From positions 186,001-250,000 of the forward strand of contig NZ_JAEAGP010000001.1 of the NCBI RefSeq assembly GCF_015999305.1: a DNA stretch of 64,000 bases, written 5' to 3'. Shown in pieces: positions 44,493 to 56,721 of the stretch. The position numbers and the translations under genes were made by a program. Source of the stretch: Erythrobacter sp. YJ-T3-07 (GTDB lineage: Bacteria > Pseudomonadota > Alphaproteobacteria > Sphingomonadales > Sphingomonadaceae). The notes beneath the pieces are model-generated. The model did not search any database, was not told the origin of the DNA, and saw only the letters and a list, made by a program, of their open reading frames with translations. Numbering within the stretch: position 1 is the first letter of the stretch; the number at the start of each line of letters is the position of its first letter.

Positions 44493-45079
44493 GAGGCCAG
44501 CACATCCTCGTCGCGCAACGCGCCAAGCACTTGCAGCAGCGGCATGCCCAGGATGGTGAAATAGTCGCCCTGAATCCGCTCGAACAATTGCACGCCCAGC
44601 GCCTCGATCCGGAATACGCCAACGCACTGGGCGACCTCGGGCCATTCGGCGGCGAGGTAGGATCCGATGAAATCCTCGGTCATCTCGCGCACATGCAGCG
44701 TGGCGACGTCTTCACCCAGCCACACGATCCGCCCGTCACGCGCGAGTGCCGCCGCGCTGTAGAGATGCAGCGGCTTGCCCGAGAAGAAGCGCAGGTGCTC
44801 GGCCGCGGCATCGCGGTCGCGCGGCTTGTCGAACCGCTCGCCCTCGACCATCACCAGACTGTCGCCCCCCAGCACCAGCGCGCCGGGATTTCCGGCGGAC
44901 ACCGCGCTCGCTTTTGCTGCGGCAAGCGCCTGCGCAATCTCTGCGGGCGGCGCATCGGCCATCTCCGCTTCCAGCGCGCGCTCGTCCACATCGGCACCGA
45001 TGGCGGACGCAATGGAAACGCCCGCGGCCTCCAGCATGACGCGGCGCGAGGCGCTGTTCGAGGCGAGGATCAGGGTCAG
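44489..45079 (-). CDS. maf: Maf family nucleotide pyrophosphatase, apparent CTG start
   Basis: 196 residues. The family requires LILASNSASRR at the N-terminus, which lies upstream of the first ATG (45037). No ATG, GTG or TTG precedes it in frame. A CTG at 45079 has AGGAG at eight bases' spacing and overlaps the PPSR stop as CTGA, the same 4-base coupling (ATGA/GTGA) used by its neighbours. I therefore place the start there. GGDSLVMVEGERFDKPRD and DYFTILGMPLLQVLGALR are Maf signatures. It hydrolyses non-canonical or dTTP/UTP nucleotides. Confidence 0.85.
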   Translation of the reverse strand: MTLILASNSASRRVMLEAAGVSIASAIGADVDERALEAEMADAPPAEIAQALAAAKASAVSAGNPGALVLGGDSLVMVEGERFDKPRDRDAAAEHLRFFSGKPLHLYSAAALARDGRIVWLGEDVATLHVREMTEDFIGSYLAAEWPEVAQCVGVFRIEALGVQLFERIQGDYFTILGMPLLQVLGALRDEDVLAS

Positions 45080-45912
45080 ATCGGTTTCTCCTGCGGCTTG
45101 GTGCGCGAGCCATGTTCGCCGGCCAGCTTGATGATCGCGGCGGCGGTTTCTTCGATCGAGCGGCGGGTAACGTCGATCACCGGCCAGTTATTGTCCGCGA
45201 ACATCCGCCGTGCGAAGCGGATTTCCTCCTCCACCCGCTCATGCTCGGCATAGGCGGTCTGCGATGCTTCGTTGAGCGAGAGCAGGCGGTTGCGACGGAT
45301 CTGCACCAGCCGGTCGGGCGCGGTGGTCAGTCCGACGATCAGCGGCCCGCTCAGTTCGAACAGCACCGGCGGCGGCGGGCTTTCGATCACCAGCGGGATA
45401 TTGGCGACCTTGTAGCCCCGGTTGGCGAGATAGATGCTGGTCGGCGTCTTCGATGTGCGCGAAACCCCGGTCAGCAGGATATCGGCGCGGTGCCAGTCTT
45501 CGCTACCCGCGCCATCATCATGCGCGATGGTGAAATGGATCGCATCGACCCGCTTGAAATAGGCATCGTCCATCCGGTGCTGGCGACCAGGACGGCCATG
45601 CGCCTCTTGCCCCAGATGGTTTTCGAGCGCGGTGGTCACCACCCCCAGCGCATCCACCGCGGGCAGGCCCAGGTGTCGACAGCGATCTTCGAGCAGCTCG
45701 CGCGTGTCCTCATTCACCAGGGTAAACAGGATCAGCCCGGGTGCCTTCTCCAGTTCCGGCATGATCCGTTCCAGATGCTGGCGCGATCGGACCATCGGCC
45801 AGAAATGGCGCACCACGTCCGCCCCTTCGAACTGAGCGAGCGCCGCGTTGGCGACCATCTGGAGGGTCTCGCCGGTCGAATCGGAGAAGAGGTGAATATG
45901 CGTGCGCGCCAA
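45076..45912 (-). CDS. Pyruvate, water dikinase regulatory protein (PPSR, DUF299)
   Basis: ADP-dependent kinase/Pi-dependent phosphorylase that controls PEP synthase or pyruvate phosphate dikinase. HIHLFSDSTGETLQMVANAALAQF and GVSRTSKTPTSIYLANRGYKVANIPLV (P-loop-like GVSRTSKT) are diagnostic. I prefer TTG 45912, giving 278 residues and an N-terminus like other members. An ATG at 45957 would add 15 residues, and neither has a strong ribosome site. It is the gene immediately left of the proposed origin, as in other alphaproteobacteria (the RP001-type neighbour). Confidence 0.88.
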   Translation of the reverse strand: MARTHIHLFSDSTGETLQMVANAALAQFEGADVVRHFWPMVRSRQHLERIMPELEKAPGLILFTLVNEDTRELLEDRCRHLGLPAVDALGVVTTALENHLGQEAHGRPGRQHRMDDAYFKRVDAIHFTIAHDDGAGSEDWHRADILLTGVSRTSKTPTSIYLANRGYKVANIPLVIESPPPPVLFELSGPLIVGLTTAPDRLVQIRRNRLLSLNEASQTAYAEHERVEEEIRFARRMFADNNWPVIDVTRRSIEETAAAIIKLAGEHGSRTKPQEKPI

Positions 45913-45938
45913 GGGAGGATCCGGCCTGTGGAAAGCTC

Positions 45939-45947
45939 TCGGGATAA
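45939..45947 (-). promoter_or_regulatory. DnaA-box-like site TTATCCCGA
   Basis: Reads TTATCCCGA on the minus strand, 7/9 to TTATCCACA. It shares the exact octamer TTATCCCG with the sites at 46061 and 46153, so it may be a lineage variant of the DnaA box. Confidence 0.45.
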
Positions 45948-46039
45948 ACCACTTCATATCCGCAAGGACAAGTCCGGCACGGTTTTCCTGCCCACCGGCC
46001 CCCGGATTCACACCGGGGGTTTGCCAACAGGGATGGCCT

Positions 46040-46048
46040 TTATCCGCA
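46040..46048 (+). promoter_or_regulatory. DnaA box TTATCCGCA
   Basis: TTATCCGCA differs from the TTATCCACA consensus only at position 7. It is the best single DnaA-box match in the PPSR-hemE gap. Confidence 0.6.
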
Positions 46049-46060
46049 TGCTGGGTACAA

Positions 46061-46069
46061 CCGGGATAA
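46061..46069 (-). promoter_or_regulatory. DnaA-box-like site TTATCCCGG
   Basis: Reads TTATCCCGG on the minus strand. It is the second copy of the repeated TTATCCCG octamer in the proposed origin. Confidence 0.45.
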
Positions 46070-46152
46070 GTTTCGATTGACCGCGCAGTCGTGCGGATTC
46101 GGTTGGCTGGGGGTGGCCCGGGTTATGAGTCAGGGGGCTGTGCAGCAGTGGG

Positions 46153-46161
46153 TTATCCCGC
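46153..46161 (+). promoter_or_regulatory. DnaA-box-like site TTATCCCGC
   Basis: The third TTATCCCG copy, here on the plus strand. It is followed directly by CTGTCCACA (46162-46170), itself 7/9 to the DnaA box, so two candidate boxes abut. Confidence 0.5.
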
Positions 46162-46192
46162 CTGTCCACAGGACCTACTTCCTTCATCCATC

Positions 46193-46213
46193 TATTAATA
46201 ATATTATTATTTA
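46193..46213. other. A/T-only tract, candidate DNA-unwinding element
   Basis: Twenty-one consecutive A/T bases in DNA of about two-thirds G+C, lying 15 bases before the hemE ATG and 32 bases right of the last DnaA-like box. It could be the unwinding element of the origin and also part of the hemE promoter. Confidence 0.55.
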
Positions 46214-46227
46214 GGATAGTTAGGCGC

Positions 46228-47253
46228 ATGCCCGGTCCTCTTCTCGATTGCCTGCGCGGCGAACGCGCCGAAAGCCCGCCCGTCTGGTTCATGCGCCAGG
46301 CAGGGCGATATTTGCCCGAATACCGCGCCTTGCGGGCCGACAAGGGCGGGTTCCTCGATCTGGTTTACGATAGCGAGGCGGCGTGCGAGGTAACCTTGCA
46401 GCCGATCCGCCGGTTCGGGTTCGACGGGGCGATCCTGTTTTCCGATATCCTGATCGTGCCGCATGCGATGGGGCAGAATCTCGAATTCCTCGCCGGCGAA
46501 GGGCCCAAGCTGAGTCCGCCGCTGGTCGAGAGCGAGCTTGCCGGGCTCAGCGTCGATCCCTCCCGCTACGACCCGGTCTACCAGACCGTGCGCTTGTGCC
46601 GGGAGCAGCTGGCACCCGATGTCACCATGCTCGGCTTTGCGGGAAGTCCGTGGACCGTGGCGACCTACATGATCGCGGGCGAGGGCAGCCGGGATCAGCA
46701 CGCGGCACGCGCGATGGCCTATGCCGATCCGGGCAAGGTCGAGGCGATCATCGGCGCGATCATCGAGCAGACCGTCGGTTATCTGCGCGGACAGATCGAC
46801 GCGGGCGCGGAGGCAGTGCAGCTGTTCGACAGCTGGGCAGGCAGTCTCGCTCCGGACGAGTTCGACCGCTGGGTGATCGAGCCCAACACGCGGATCGTGG
46901 CCGCGATCAAGGATAGCCATCCGGATATTCCGGTGATCGGTTTTCCCAAGGGTGCGGGCGAGAAGCTGCCTCGCTATGCGGAGCGGGCCGGGGTCGACGC
47001 GGTCGGCCTCGACGAAACGCTCGACCCCGAATGGGCGCATGCGGCGCTTCCCAAGGGCATGCCGGTGCAGGGCAATCTCGACCCGATGCTGTTGCTTGCC
47101 GGTGGCGATCGGCTGGACCGCACCATCCGGCATATCCTGTCGGCGCTGGCCGACCGGCCGCACGTGTTCAATCTGGGCCACGGAATCGACCGCCACACGC
47201 CGATCGCGCATGTCGAACATGCGCTGGGCGTGCTGCGCGATTGGCAGCGCTAG
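46228..47253 (+). CDS. hemE: Uroporphyrinogen decarboxylase
   Basis: 341 residues; it removes four carboxyl groups from uroporphyrinogen III in heme synthesis. The N-terminal signature RGERAESPPVWFMRQAGRYLPEYRALRA and the internal GFAGSPWTVATYMIAG are characteristic. TTAGG precedes the ATG at short spacing. As in Caulobacter it adjoins the proposed origin and is transcribed away from it. The hemJ gene follows after 22 bases. Confidence 0.97.
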   Translation: MPGPLLDCLRGERAESPPVWFMRQAGRYLPEYRALRADKGGFLDLVYDSEAACEVTLQPIRRFGFDGAILFSDILIVPHAMGQNLEFLAGEGPKLSPPLVESELAGLSVDPSRYDPVYQTVRLCREQLAPDVTMLGFAGSPWTVATYMIAGEGSRDQHAARAMAYADPGKVEAIIGAIIEQTVGYLRGQIDAGAEAVQLFDSWAGSLAPDEFDRWVIEPNTRIVAAIKDSHPDIPVIGFPKGAGEKLPRYAERAGVDAVGLDETLDPEWAHAALPKGMPVQGNLDPMLLLAGGDRLDRTIRHILSALADRPHVFNLGHGIDRHTPIAHVEHALGVLRDWQR

Positions 47254-52393: not shown

Positions 52394-52409
52394 TGTTCCA
52401 CGTGGAACA
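52394..52409. promoter_or_regulatory. parS: parS site 1 (mnmE-mnmG intergenic)
   Basis: TGTTCCACGTGGAACA, a perfect 16-bp palindrome, 14/16 to the ParB consensus TGTTTCACGTGAAACA. It begins at the base after the mnmE stop codon. It is expected to load ParB encoded 3.3 kb downstream. Confidence 0.9.
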
Positions 52410-52455
52410 TTGCTCCCTCTGGCGAGAGCGACAGAGCGCGCCTATAGGAGCGCGC

Positions 52456-54315
52456 ATGCAACATTATCCGATTATCGTCATCGGCGGTGGTCACGCCGGC
52501 GTGGAAGCGGCCTGCATCGCCGCGCGCATGGGCGTGCGCGTGGGCCTGGTCACGATGGACGCCAGCAAGATCGGCGCAATGAGCTGCAACCCGGCGATCG
52601 GCGGGCTGGGCAAGGGCCATCTGGTGCGCGAGGTCGATGCTTTCGACGGTGTGCTTGGCCGGGCGGCGGATGCGGGCGCGATCCACTACCGCATGCTCAA
52701 CCGGTCCAAGGGAAGCGCGGTCTGGGGACCGCGCGTACAGGCCGACCGCAAACTGTTCGGTGCAGCTGTGCGTGCGCAGGTCGCGGCGGAAGAAACGCTC
52801 GACGTGATCGCGGGCGAGGCGGCGGCGCTGCTGCTGGACGGCGAGCGGGTCGCCGGAGTCGAACTGGCGGACGGAACGCGAATCAAATGCGAAGCCGCTA
52901 TCCTGTGCACCGGCACGTTCCTGGGTGGCGTTCTGTTCCGGGGAGAGGAGACCTTCGTCGGCGGGCGCGTGGGCGAGGGTTCGGCCGCACGGCTTGCAGC
53001 CCAACTGCGCGAGACGGCTCTTCCGATGGCACGATTGAAGACGGGGACGCCGCCCCGGCTCGACGGGCGAACGATCGACTGGTCGCGGCTCGACGAGCAG
53101 CCGTCCGACGACGAATTGTGGACCATGTCGCCGCTTTCACGTGGACGAGCCAACCCGCAGATATTCTGCGCGATCACCCGGACCAATGCGCGCTCGCATG
53201 AGATCATCCGCGCGAACCTCTCGCGCTCCCCGCTCTATTCGGGTGCGATCGGTGCGCAGGGGCCGCGCTATTGCCCCTCTATCGAGGACAAGATCGACCG
53301 CTTCGGCGATCGCGATGGGCACCAAATCTTTCTTGAGCCGGAGGGGCTGGATACGCCGCTGGTCTATCCCAACGGCATCAGCACCTCGCTGCCGGTCGAT
53401 GTGCAGGAGGACTTTCTCCGCGCGATCGACGGGTTGGAGCAGGTCCGGGTGATCGAACCGGGCTACGCAGTCGAATACGACCACGTCGATCCGCGCTCGC
53501 TCGACCGGTGGTTGCAGATGCGGTCTTTGCCGAGGCTTTATTGCGCGGGACAGATCAACGGCACCACCGGCTATGAAGAAGCGGCTGCACAGGGGCTCGT
53601 CGCCGGTTTGCACGCCGCATCGAGTGTTCTGGGGCGCGATGCGCCGGCGCTCGATCGTGCGAACAGCTATATTGCGGTGATGGTCGACGACCTCACGCTG
53701 CATGGGGTGACCGAGCCCTATCGCATGCTTACCGCGCGTGCGGAGTATCGCCTCCGGTTGCGCGCCAACAATGCAGGCACCCGGCTCACCCCAATGGCTA
53801 TCGAAGCGGGCTGTGTTCACGTGGAACGGCGCGCGTGGCTCGAGGCACGGGCCGAGGCGCGGGAAGCGGTAGCGAGTGCGTTGGCCGAGCAATGTGGCCC
53901 CGCGCAGATGCGCGCGCTCGGCTTTGGAGCCACGGATGACGCGGGGCGGCAGCCCTTGCGGGATTGGACTCGCTTCCCTGGCATCGATCTTTCCGCACTC
54001 CAGTATGCCGGGCTTGTTCCACGTGAAACGGACCCGACCTTGCTGGAAGAGATCGGCGAAGACCTGCACTATGCTCCCTATATCGCGCGCCAGGATGCCG
54101 AATTGCGCGAGCTGCGGGCCAACGAGCAGGTCGCGCTCGCACCTAATTTTCCATTCTCCCAGGTTCCCGGCCTCTCGAACGAGATGGTCGAGCGCCTTTC
54201 ACGTGTACGGCCGGACAGCCTTGCGCAGGCGGGCCGCGTTGCGGGGATTACGCCTGCGGCAATGGCGGCGCTGCTGGTTTACGCACGCAAATATCACGAG
54301 AGCCGCGCCGCATGA
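52456..54315 (+). CDS. mnmG: tRNA uridine 5-carboxymethylaminomethyl modification enzyme MnmG
   Basis: 619 residues from ATG 52456 with AGGAG upstream; the longer frame from 52390 would read through parS and is rejected. The FAD-binding [10 protein letters not shown] is at the N-terminus, with [22 protein letters not shown] and [17 protein letters not shown] as GidA signatures. The partner of MnmE. One strong and several weak parS sites lie inside the gene. It overlaps rsmG (ATGA). Confidence 0.97.
54015..54030. promoter_or_regulatory. parS: parS site 2 (within mnmG)
   Basis: TGTTCCACGTGAAACG, 14/16 to the consensus. It lies within the mnmG coding sequence and is read there as the residues Leu-Val-Pro-Arg-Glu-Thr. 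Confidence 0.8.
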
Positions 54316-54953
54316 TGATCGAGACAGAGGAAGATGCGAAAGCCTTTGTGGCCGAGCGTTGCTCCGACACCGCGTTCGCCAAGCTGGAGAAATTCGTCGC
54401 CAAATTGCGAATCGAGGCCGAGCACCAGAACCTGATCTCACGCTCGACGATGGACAGCGTCTGGCAGCGCCACGTCGCGGATAGCGCGCAGTTGCTCGAC
54501 CATGTTCCACGTGAAACATCGGGACCATGGCTCGATATTGGCACCGGGGCGGGCTTCCCGGGCATCGTCACCGCTATTATGAGACCGGACCTGCCGCATG
54601 TACTTTGTGAACCAAGGGCAAAACGCGTCACGTGGCTCGAGCGGATGGCCAGTCTGGCCGAGCTGGGGAATTGCCGTGTCGCTGGCAGTCGAGTCGAGAA
54701 GGTGGAGACCTTCGCCGCAGGTGTCATCAGCGCACGTGCCTGCGCGTCACTGAAGGATCTCATCAGCTTGTCCGCACGCTTTTCCACCGACGGCACGCAT
54801 TGGGTCTTGCCCAAAGGCAGGTCGGCGGCGCAGGAAAGGGATGAGCTTGATTCTCAGCAGCGCGCAATGTTTCACGTGGAACAATCGCTCACCAGTCGCG
54901 ACGCTGCGATCCTGGTTGGCAAAGGCCGGCCCAAAGGCGGGAGCAGACAATGA
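54312..54953 (+). CDS. rsmG: 16S rRNA (guanine-527-N7) methyltransferase RsmG
   Basis: 213 residues. [26 protein letters not shown] and the SAM motif [13 protein letters not shown] are diagnostic. It methylates G527 of 16S rRNA. ATG 54312 overlaps the mnmG stop; a second ATG follows directly at 54315. Two strong parS sites are embedded in the coding sequence. Its end overlaps parA (ATGA). Confidence 0.95.
54503..54518. promoter_or_regulatory. parS: parS site 3 (within rsmG)
   Basis: TGTTCCACGTGAAACA, 15/16 to the consensus and a full match to the degenerate form TGTTNCACGTGAAACA. It is one of the two best sites. Confidence 0.92.
54868..54883. promoter_or_regulatory. parS: parS site 4 (end of rsmG, 67 bp before parA)
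   Basis: TGTTTCACGTGGAACA, 15/16 to the consensus. It lies 67 bp upstream of the parA ATG, so ParB bound here could also influence parAB transcription. Confidence 0.92.
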
Positions 54954-55729
54954 TCCGCATCGCAATTGCCAACCAGAAGGGCGGCGTGGGCAAGACCACC
55001 ACCGCGATCAATATCGCGACCGCCATCGCAGCGACCGGCTGGCGGACGCTTCTGATCGACCTCGATCCGCAGGGAAATGCCTCGACCGGGCTCGGTATTC
55101 CCAGCCGGGACCGCGAGGATTCGACCTACGACCTGCTGATGGAGGAAGCGACCGTTGCGCAGTGCACGCTGAAAACGCGCATTCCCAATCTCGATATCAT
55201 CCCCGCAACTCAGGATCTGAGCGGCGCAGAGGTCGAGCTGGTTGCGGAGGGTGACCGGGTCGAGCGGCTCAAGAAGGCACTGGCGAATGCCGATCATCAT
55301 TACGATGTCTGCTTCATCGACTGCCCGCCATCGCTCGGTCTGCTGACGCTCAACGCGCTTAGCGCGGCCGATTCGCTGATGGTCCCGCTGCAGTGCGAGT
55401 TCTTCGCGCTCGAAGGGCTCAGCCAGCTGCTCCAGACCGTCGAGCGCGTGCAGCAGGGGATCAATCCCTCGCTCAATATTATCGGCGTGACACTGACCAT
55501 GTTCGATCGGCGCAACCGGCTGACCGATGCTGTCGCCGAGGACGTTCGCGAATGTCTCGGCGGGCTGGTCTTCGATACCGTGATCCCGCGCAATGTCCGC
55601 CTGTCGGAAGCCCCCAGCCACGGGTTACCGGCATTGATCTACGACCACTCCTGCGCGGGCAGCCGCGCTTACATGGCGCTTGCCCGTGAACTGCTCGGCC
55701 GGATGCCCCTGGAAAGGAAAGCCGCATGA
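54950..55729 (+). CDS. parA: Chromosome partitioning ATPase ParA
   Basis: 259 residues. Deviant Walker A KGGVGKTT at residues ~11-18 with the signature Lys, IDLDPQGNASTGLG and DCPPSLGLLTLNAL. It moves ParB-parS complexes during segregation. The short N-terminus without an added DNA-binding domain marks it as a chromosomal type Ib-like ParA. It overlaps rsmG and parB by ATGA on both sides. Confidence 0.97.
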   Translation: MIRIAIANQKGGVGKTTTAINIATAIAATGWRTLLIDLDPQGNASTGLGIPSRDREDSTYDLLMEEATVAQCTLKTRIPNLDIIPATQDLSGAEVELVAEGDRVERLKKALANADHHYDVCFIDCPPSLGLLTLNALSAADSLMVPLQCEFFALEGLSQLLQTVERVQQGINPSLNIIGVTLTMFDRRNRLTDAVAEDVRECLGGLVFDTVIPRNVRLSEAPSHGLPALIYDHSCAGSRAYMALARELLGRMPLERKAA

Positions 55730-56721
55730 GCAGCAAGCCCGAAGTCTCCACTGCCGCCGCCGAGGTCACACCGGATCGCGCGAAGCGCAAGCTGGGCCGC
55801 GGGCTCGGCGCGCTGCTTGGGGAAACCCAGCGTGAGGAGAGCGTTGCGCCGAGCGAAGGTGGGACCGCGCTGTCGAGCGCTGCAGGGCAGGGCGAAGGCG
55901 GTATGGGCGCACCGCGTAGTGGACTTGCATCCATTCCTGTGGCCCGGATCGAGCCGTTGCCGGGCCAGCCCCGCCAGATTTTCGACGACGACGCGCTTGA
56001 CGATCTTGCCCGCTCCATCGCGCAGCGCGGCGTCATCCAGCCGATCATCGTCCGCCCGCTGGAACGCAAGGGCCGCTACCAGCTGGTCGCCGGCGAACGG
56101 CGCTGGCGCGCGGCGCAACGCGCCAAACTGCATGAAATTCCAGCGATTATCCGCGATCTCGACCAGCGCGAGGTCATGGCGATTGCGCTGATCGAGAATA
56201 TCCAGCGCGAGGATCTCAACCCGATCGAAGAAGCGCGGGCCTACCAGCATCTCGCCGACGAAGAGGGCATGAGCCAGGCGGAAATCGCCGAACTGGTCGA
56301 CAAATCGCGCAGCCACGTCGCCAATCATCAGCGGCTGCTGGCGCTCCCGGCAAAGGTCATCGCCTATGTCGAACGCGGCCAGCTGAGCATGGGACACGCC
56401 CGCGCTCTGATCGGCCACGATGCCGCAGAGATGCTGGCTGAGGAAGCCGTGACCCGTAATCTGTCGGTGCGGGACGTGGAAAAGCGCGTCCGCAGCAAGG
56501 GCAGCGCCTCGGGTCGCGCGTCGTCAGCAAAGCCCAGAAAATCTGACGGCCACGAAAGCGAGGATATCGCCGCGGTCGAACGGCACCTGGAAGAATTCCT
56601 CGGCATGTCGCTCAAGATCAAGCCCGATGCCGATCCGAGCTCAGGAGCGATCACGATCAGGTACAAGACGCTCGATCAGCTGGACTTGCTGTGCCAGCGC
56701 CTCACCGGCGGGAAGATCTAG
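55726..56721 (+). CDS. parB: Chromosome partitioning protein ParB
   Basis: 331 residues. The N-terminal RKLGRGLGALLGE contacts ParA. The CTP-binding ParB/Srx domain has PGQPRQIFDDDALDDLARSI and GERRWRAAQRA. The helix-turn-helix region MSQAEIAELVDKSRSHVANHQRLLALP should read parS. The C-terminal dimerisation domain is at DIAAVERHLEEFLGMSLKIK. Its target sites lie 0.8-3.3 kb upstream. Confidence 0.97.
   Translation: MSSKPEVSTAAAEVTPDRAKRKLGRGLGALLGETQREESVAPSEGGTALSSAAGQGEGGMGAPRSGLASIPVARIEPLPGQPRQIFDDDALDDLARSIAQRGVIQPIIVRPLERKGRYQLVAGERRWRAAQRAKLHEIPAIIRDLDQREVMAIALIENIQREDLNPIEEARAYQHLADEEGMSQAEIAELVDKSRSHVANHQRLLALPAKVIAYVERGQLSMGHARALIGHDAAEMLAEEAVTRNLSVRDVEKRVRSKGSASGRASSAKPRKSDGHESEDIAAVERHLEEFLGMSLKIKPDADPSSGAITIRYKTLDQLDLLCQRLTGGKI

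Follow-up and report, generated by a model that had tools for sequence, protein, structure and literature searches.

A predicted hemE-type replication origin between divergent ppsR and hemE genes in a Citromicrobium-like member of the Sphingomonadales

The ppsR-hemE locus

The window analyzed here is a 64-kb stretch comprising bases 186001-250000 of a 3,074,277-bp contig within a 3,315,910-bp assembly of 491 contigs. It contains a 315-bp intergenic gap flanked by the divergent genes ppsR and hemE, with a GC content of 0.559 versus 0.657 for the whole window. In window coordinates, used throughout unless stated otherwise, the gap and its boundaries are:

45076..45912, minus strand: ppsR (PEP synthase regulator), left boundary (NF003742, E 4.8e-98, above the NCBIfam cut-off)
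45913..46227, no strand: predicted oriC, the gap separating the two divergent genes (strand skew, parS proximity, DnaA-like boxes, A/T tract)
46228..47253, plus strand: hemE, uroporphyrinogen decarboxylase, right boundary (TIGR01464, E 9e-116, above the NCBIfam cut-off)

For ppsR, which we take to be the equivalent of COG1806/RP001, a TTG start codon bounding the gap at 45912 was assumed, leaving the left edge uncertain by a few codons. The elements listed in a preliminary description of this DNA, namely a 315-bp gap with TTATCC motifs, a 21-bp A/T tract, three GANTC motifs and divergent flanking genes, were all found again. The closest named hemE is that of Citromicrobium bathyomarinum (97%), on which the genus label used here is based, and a search of a plasmid collection gave no match.

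A ppsR match is present in 141 of 149 genomes of a family sample, this genome included, and a divergent ppsR-hemE gap of 298-382 bp occurs in each of the best 30 of these 141 loci (own locus again included). The same divergent pair was found in 20/20 neighbourhoods, nine of them from genomes also among the 30; the 30 loci and the eleven further neighbourhood genomes make up a set of 41 gaps, all different in sequence. A second collection, partly overlapping the first and divided into groups by record title and place in an identity-ranked list, has a divergent gap in 37/37 sphingomonad-type hemE loci and, within the DNA taken, in 18 of the 43 other hemE loci. The gap thus has the placement of a hemE-type origin, between hemE and the ppsR/COG1806 gene.

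This address is already known for origins in alphaproteobacteria (PMC1914354) and in Sphingomonadaceae, where hemE-linked origins have been reported (PMC4741004). Cori of Caulobacter crescentus, 404 bp long, lies between hemE and the COG1806 gene as the gap does (PMC1914354), and resembles it further in its several DnaA boxes, the presence of GANTC and a parS within 8 kb (PMC1914354, PMC4468827, PMC3973325), and oriC of Rickettsia prowazekii has the identical hemE/COG1806 address (PMC1914354). The origins of Sphingopyxis granuli TFA and its relatives are like the gap in lying beside hemE, within a gene order that is conserved, and in having DnaA boxes together with a putative unwinding element (PMC4741004), and that of Novosphingobium PP1Y likewise adjoins hemE (PMC4059872), although Sphingopyxis and Novosphingobium are each a different genus from the present one.

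Judged from the sequences of the second collection, close pairing of hemE with ppsR is not universal in alphaproteobacteria: 25 of the 43 hemE loci from other members of the class (within L211-L255) have no ppsR match in the DNA taken, at most 3 kb on each side. In one record (L207), ppsR diverges from a Sphingomonas-like hemE; its title, Bacillus sp. 2B10, is probably wrong.

Neighbouring genes and parABS

Downstream of hemE lie hemJ (profile match below cut-off) and then rho, and mnmE, mnmG, rsmG, parA and parB are all found no more than about 10.5 kb from where hemE starts. The preliminary description named parAB and parS as known neighbours of alphaproteobacterial origins; parA and parB homologues and parS-like sites could indeed be located in the same window:

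52396..52407, no strand: parS-like site TTCCACGTGGAA, exact match
54017..54028, no strand: parS-like site, exact match
54505..54516, no strand: parS-like site, exact match
54870..54881, no strand: parS-like site, exact match
54950..55729, plus strand: parA (ParA-family ATPase; TIGR03453, E 2.5e-32, and NF041546, E 3.3e-28, both below cut-offs; adjoins parB)
55726..56721, plus strand: parB (TIGR00180, E 2.8e-57, above cut-off)

The assembly as a whole contains four exact copies of the palindrome TTYCACGTGRAA, every one of them at 52396-54881 and 6.2-8.6 kb from the hemE start, and the pattern read in reverse has zero occurrences in the assembly. The gap is accordingly accompanied by parAB and parS at close range, as expected of a hemE-type oriC. 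Among 20 relatives, for each of which 20 kb was inspected, hemJ and rho follow hemE in 19, mnmE-mnmG-rsmG is present in 18 and parAB in 17 (one of the three misses is a stretch that ends around the expected place), and parS-like sites stand at 5.2-12.4 kb in 18. The cluster can break up: the ~12.7 kb next to hemE lacks hemJ, rho and the par genes in one relative (L125, G045), and mnmE onward as well as the par genes in another (L131, G140).

Strand asymmetry

Cumulative GC skew, sampled over 1.65 of the 3.07 Mb of the contig, has its minimum at 225.5 kb and its maximum at 1,893.5 kb. In the contiguous first 470 kb the minimum lies at 222,271 (36.3 kb in the window) and the best change-point at 222 kb, with change-points from 182 to 237 kb within 2 log units; the gap, at 232 kb, falls inside this interval. 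The minimum had been predicted at about 46.1 kb of the window and is thus some 10 kb off, with a support range that includes the gap. With an amplitude of about 1-2% the skew is weak, and it resolves nothing finer than ~50 kb.

The skew is positive in 38 of 43 stretches of one arm of the contig and negative in 35 of 37 of the other, counts that exclude the window itself and are partly circular because the far arm boundary was set at the skew maximum. Two single-contig relatives were sampled in 20 evenly spaced stretches plus one at the ppsR-hemE site. The expected sign was obtained in 10/10 and 10/11 stretches of the two arms in the first (G096), with a minimum 28 kb from the site at a sample spacing of ~150 kb, and in 8/10 and 11/11 in the second (G033), with a minimum 1.8 kb from the site. 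The gap is therefore situated at a turning point of strand skew, as a bacterial oriC should be.

Two stretches of the contig stand out in composition: 2436313-2456312 (L097) has a GC content of 0.487 versus about 0.65 elsewhere and is perhaps an acquired island, and 2877715-2897714 (L107), with a GC content of 0.611 and the wrong skew sign for its arm, is possibly an island or a local inversion.

DnaA-like boxes

Four TTATCC cores lie within the gap, as parts of 9-mers at 45939(-), 46040(+), 46061(-) and 46153(+), compared with 10 in the window and 328 (190 + 138) in the 3.32-Mb genome. With 0.031 expected per 315 bp, four in the gap correspond to a Poisson P of 3.8e-8, or ~4e-4 once multiplied by the number of gap-sized windows, for a motif picked after viewing the gap. 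Scans for rival places, which cover 1.65 Mb (54%) of the 3.07-Mb contig, revealed no other 315-bp place with four TTATCC, and nowhere else in the contiguous 1-470 kb matches either the four TTATCC of the gap or its five boxes. The individual sites, with their mean mismatches over the 41 aligned gaps, are:

45927..45935, minus strand: DnaA-box-like site CTTTCCACA, with a mean of 1.44 the best conserved of the boxes
45939..45947, minus strand: DnaA-box-like site TTATCCCGA, TTATCC core; weaker in the family, mean 3.54, inside the block GGcATAAACCACGGGA
45956..45964, plus strand: DnaA-box-like site ATATCCGCA, 2 mismatches; unconserved (mean 6.95), private to close kin
46040..46048, plus strand: DnaA-box-like site TTATCCGCA, 1 mismatch; conserved, mean 2.41
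46052..46060, minus strand: DnaA-box-like position, conserved (mean 2.39); the present genome has 3 mismatches
46061..46069, minus strand: DnaA-box-like site TTATCCCGG, conserved, mean 3.05
46153..46161, plus strand: DnaA-box-like site TTATCCCGC, TTATCC core; weaker in the family, mean 3.71; commonest family letters TTGTCCCCG
46162..46170, plus strand: DnaA-box-like site CTGTCCACA, mean 2.12, adjoining the A/T-rich side; strong conservation of TCCACAGG

In the 41-gap alignment, five 9-base windows match the consensus TTATCCACA at a mean of <=3.2 mismatches, whereas 300 permuted consensuses gave 0.15 such windows on average and 4 at most; at each of four thresholds, all 300 fell short of the observed count, in a control that retains the relatedness of the 41 sequences. 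Exact TTATCCACA and TTNTCCACA are both absent from the gap of this genome; across the 41 gaps there are 35 copies of TTNTCCACA, spread over 28 gaps, where shuffles give 0.38, and 13 of the 37 sphingomonad-type gaps of the second collection contain it. The TTATCC count and the windows conserved across the 41 gaps together amount to a DnaA-box cluster of the kind found at bacterial oriC.

Two other measures were discarded. At <=2 mismatches TTATCCACA has five sites in the gap, equalled by two other sampled places; at <=1 mismatch the single site is unremarkable, 67 sampled places including the gap having one; and the weighted box score of the gap, 8, is equalled by two sampled places and exceeded by one, at 9. 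In view of these ties and higher scores, TTATCCACA alone was dropped as a discriminator, and it fails to single out the gap because the boxes form a degenerate set; the evidence for the putative boxes lies in the TTATCC core and the 41-gap alignment. The 9-mers shared by at least 70% of 18 relatives (near-identical G006 and G045, which lacks the hemJ-rho gap, being left out) make up 2.3% in this gap, 0.6% in the hemJ-rho gap and 0 in the shuffle, with means of 0.141, 0.115 and 0.044, respectively, and the difference between the two gaps was judged too small to count as evidence.

The A/T tract

One further element of the gap adjoins the boxes on the hemE side:

46193..46213, no strand: pure A/T tract, 21 bp, candidate DNA-unwinding element, longest A/T run in the 1.65 Mb sampled

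Only two A/T runs of at least 14 bp occur in the sampled genome, the runner-up measuring 14 bp; by A/T content over 45 bp, six sampled places, the gap included, attain the same value. An A/T-rich candidate unwinding element is thus found next to the boxes, as in bacterial origins generally.

The basal unwinding system consists of a DnaA box, a spacer and DnaA-trios (PMC8287927, PMC6669920), and the gap resembles it in that a DnaA-like box is directed at an A/T-rich stretch. We searched for a box, a spacer of 0-16 bp and three or more trios, in the single-box form and leaving uncoded the tandem-box extension of PMC8287927, with the last 60 bp of the gaps shuffled as null. The rule is no commoner in the gaps than with shuffled 3' ends, being satisfied anywhere in 12/41 gaps versus a null mean of 14.05 and beside the A/T side in 8/41 versus 10.4, and was rejected as evidence. 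The gap of this genome gave no match to the single-box rule; read off the sequence, seven in-phase NTN triplets start 21 bp past the box, outside the rule.

The gap as chromosomal replication origin

The skew support range, the parS sites, the synteny and the conserved DnaA-like boxes all support the reading of the preliminary description, and in our view the gap is almost certainly the origin (oriC) from which this Citromicrobium-like member of the Sphingomonadales replicates its chromosome. That it is only a conserved divergent promoter region of ppsR and hemE, with the origin elsewhere in the 182-237 kb skew interval, is very improbable. The blocks AT[AG]AACCA and GACAAG on the ppsR side keep constant spacing in 32/41 gaps, as promoter elements might, the A/T tract sits immediately upstream of hemE and may hold parts of its promoter too, the skew cannot separate places closer than ~50 kb, and by shared 9-mers the gap is barely more conserved than the hemJ-rho gap. 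However, a sigma-70-type promoter scan of 45800-46300 gave no match above threshold, the DnaA-like boxes are conserved across the 41 gaps, the four TTATCC and five boxes are unequalled elsewhere in the contiguous 1-470 kb, and the hemE/COG1806 address is that of the origin in Caulobacter (PMC1914354). A promoter role is, moreover, compatible with an origin role in one gap.

An origin at dnaA would be the usual arrangement in bacteria (PMC6669920), and dnaA shares the contig with the gap, at 3,004,758; it nevertheless lies 302 kb away, the stretches sampled to its left and right both show negative skew, and no 315-bp window of its 4.4-kb locus scores higher than 4, against 8 for the gap. As dnaA is, moreover, described as not kept near ori in Sphingomonadales (PMC8116508), this location is scarcely credible. 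Just as implausible is a noncoding RNA or leader element as the cause of the conservation: short conserved blocks are present, but several of them resemble DnaA boxes, and an Rfam scan of 45700-46400 found no family at gathering score and one weak match (E 0.48).

From the anatomy of the gap, its conservation, its location at the skew turning point and the clustering of parS, we infer a course of DnaA binding, opening, firing and ParABS action for this oriC. DnaA-ATP would assemble over some 240 bp on about five to seven boxes, most of them weak and degenerate, and opening would be nucleated by the box at 46162, next to the A/T tract, and take place at about 46190-46213, where helicase would be loaded and from where two forks would depart; the duplicated origins would then be moved by ParAB via the parS sites 6-9 kb off. 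As an origin, the gap would fix the start point, the arms and the strand polarity of the chromosome. What is new here is one more hemE-type oriC, a family alignment of 41 origin sequences and the GANTC pattern described below.

GANTC enrichment and CtrA sites

The gap contains three GANTC sites against 0.63 expected (P = 0.027, weak for this genome alone):

46005..46009, no strand: GANTC site, common to 2/41 gaps
46096..46100, no strand: GANTC site; 36/41 gaps have GANTC at this position
46127..46131, no strand: GANTC site, common to 2/41 gaps

The main GANTC positions of the alignment are 46096 (36/41), 46079 (26/41) and 46180 (26/41), only the first of which is occupied in this genome. The 41 gaps contain 4.84 GANTC per 330 bp versus 0.71 for the 20-kb neighbourhoods, an enrichment of about 7-fold, and 19 hemJ-rho gaps contain 0.92. 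The enrichment is lower near this genome, the nearest 17 loci of the second collection (L176-L192) having 2-4 GANTC per gap. Of seven control palindromes, AGNCT is enriched 3.7-fold, probably by overlap with a conserved block, and the remaining six lie at 0.4-1.2-fold. Between genes, GANTC is on average >1.5-fold over-represented in CcrM-bearing orders (PMC3973325), and the enrichment in the gap therefore exceeds the usual level; no report of this enrichment was found among the open-licence papers searched.

The full CtrA site TTAA-N7-TTAA occurs in 0/41 gaps, with a chance expectation of only 0.08, and the half-site TTAAC is depleted, with 3 in the 41 gaps versus 17.9 in mononucleotide shuffles; within the second collection, 4 of the 18 gaps outside the sphingomonad group contain the full pattern. 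An IHF consensus, WATCAANNNNTTR, was found in 0/41 gaps, 0.2 being expected by chance. In lacking the full CtrA pattern the gaps differ from Cori, where five CtrA sites are accompanied by an IHF site. The A/T-rich oriC of Rickettsia prowazekii reportedly has CtrA and IHF sites too, and no counterpart of these was found in the gap. The absence of CtrA sites at such origins is not new: a review describes them as unseen in origins beyond the Caulobacters and possibly Rickettsia (PMC4468827), though they have been predicted in Wolbachia, Ehrlichia and Rickettsia origins (PMC1914354). For Sphingomonas melonis, a review passage that we take to concern loss of ctrA reports that growth is not impaired (PMC8116508).

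These results raise the question of why GANTC is ~7-fold enriched in the gap of this family while the CtrA half-site is depleted. A GcrA-family protein is encoded in the genome (the control set gave matches in both Caulobacter and Sulfolobus), as is a RAMA-domain protein (among 14 controls, a match only in Caulobacter) that is likely CcrM. It is conceivable, though unlikely, that the Sphingomonadales origin is gated by adenine methylation instead of CtrA. GANTC sites would then occupy fixed places among the DnaA boxes, and the hemimethylated state left by firing, acted on by a CcrM-type methylase and possibly read by GcrA, would delay re-initiation, a function analogous to that of Dam/SeqA in E. 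coli. Overexpression of CcrM in Caulobacter is said to yield extra chromosome copies (PMC3973325). Methylation gating is less probable because only one of the three main GANTC positions is occupied here and the nearest relatives have 2-4 sites, and we also count against it the normal DNA-content profile of a Caulobacter ccrM deletion in minimal medium (PMC3973325). If true, such timing would constitute another methylation-gated initiation beside that by Dam in E. coli and V. cholerae (PMC3973325). The top GANTC counts of the second collection, 12 in a gap of 311-312 bp, are those of three Sphingomonas loci (L205, L206, L232).
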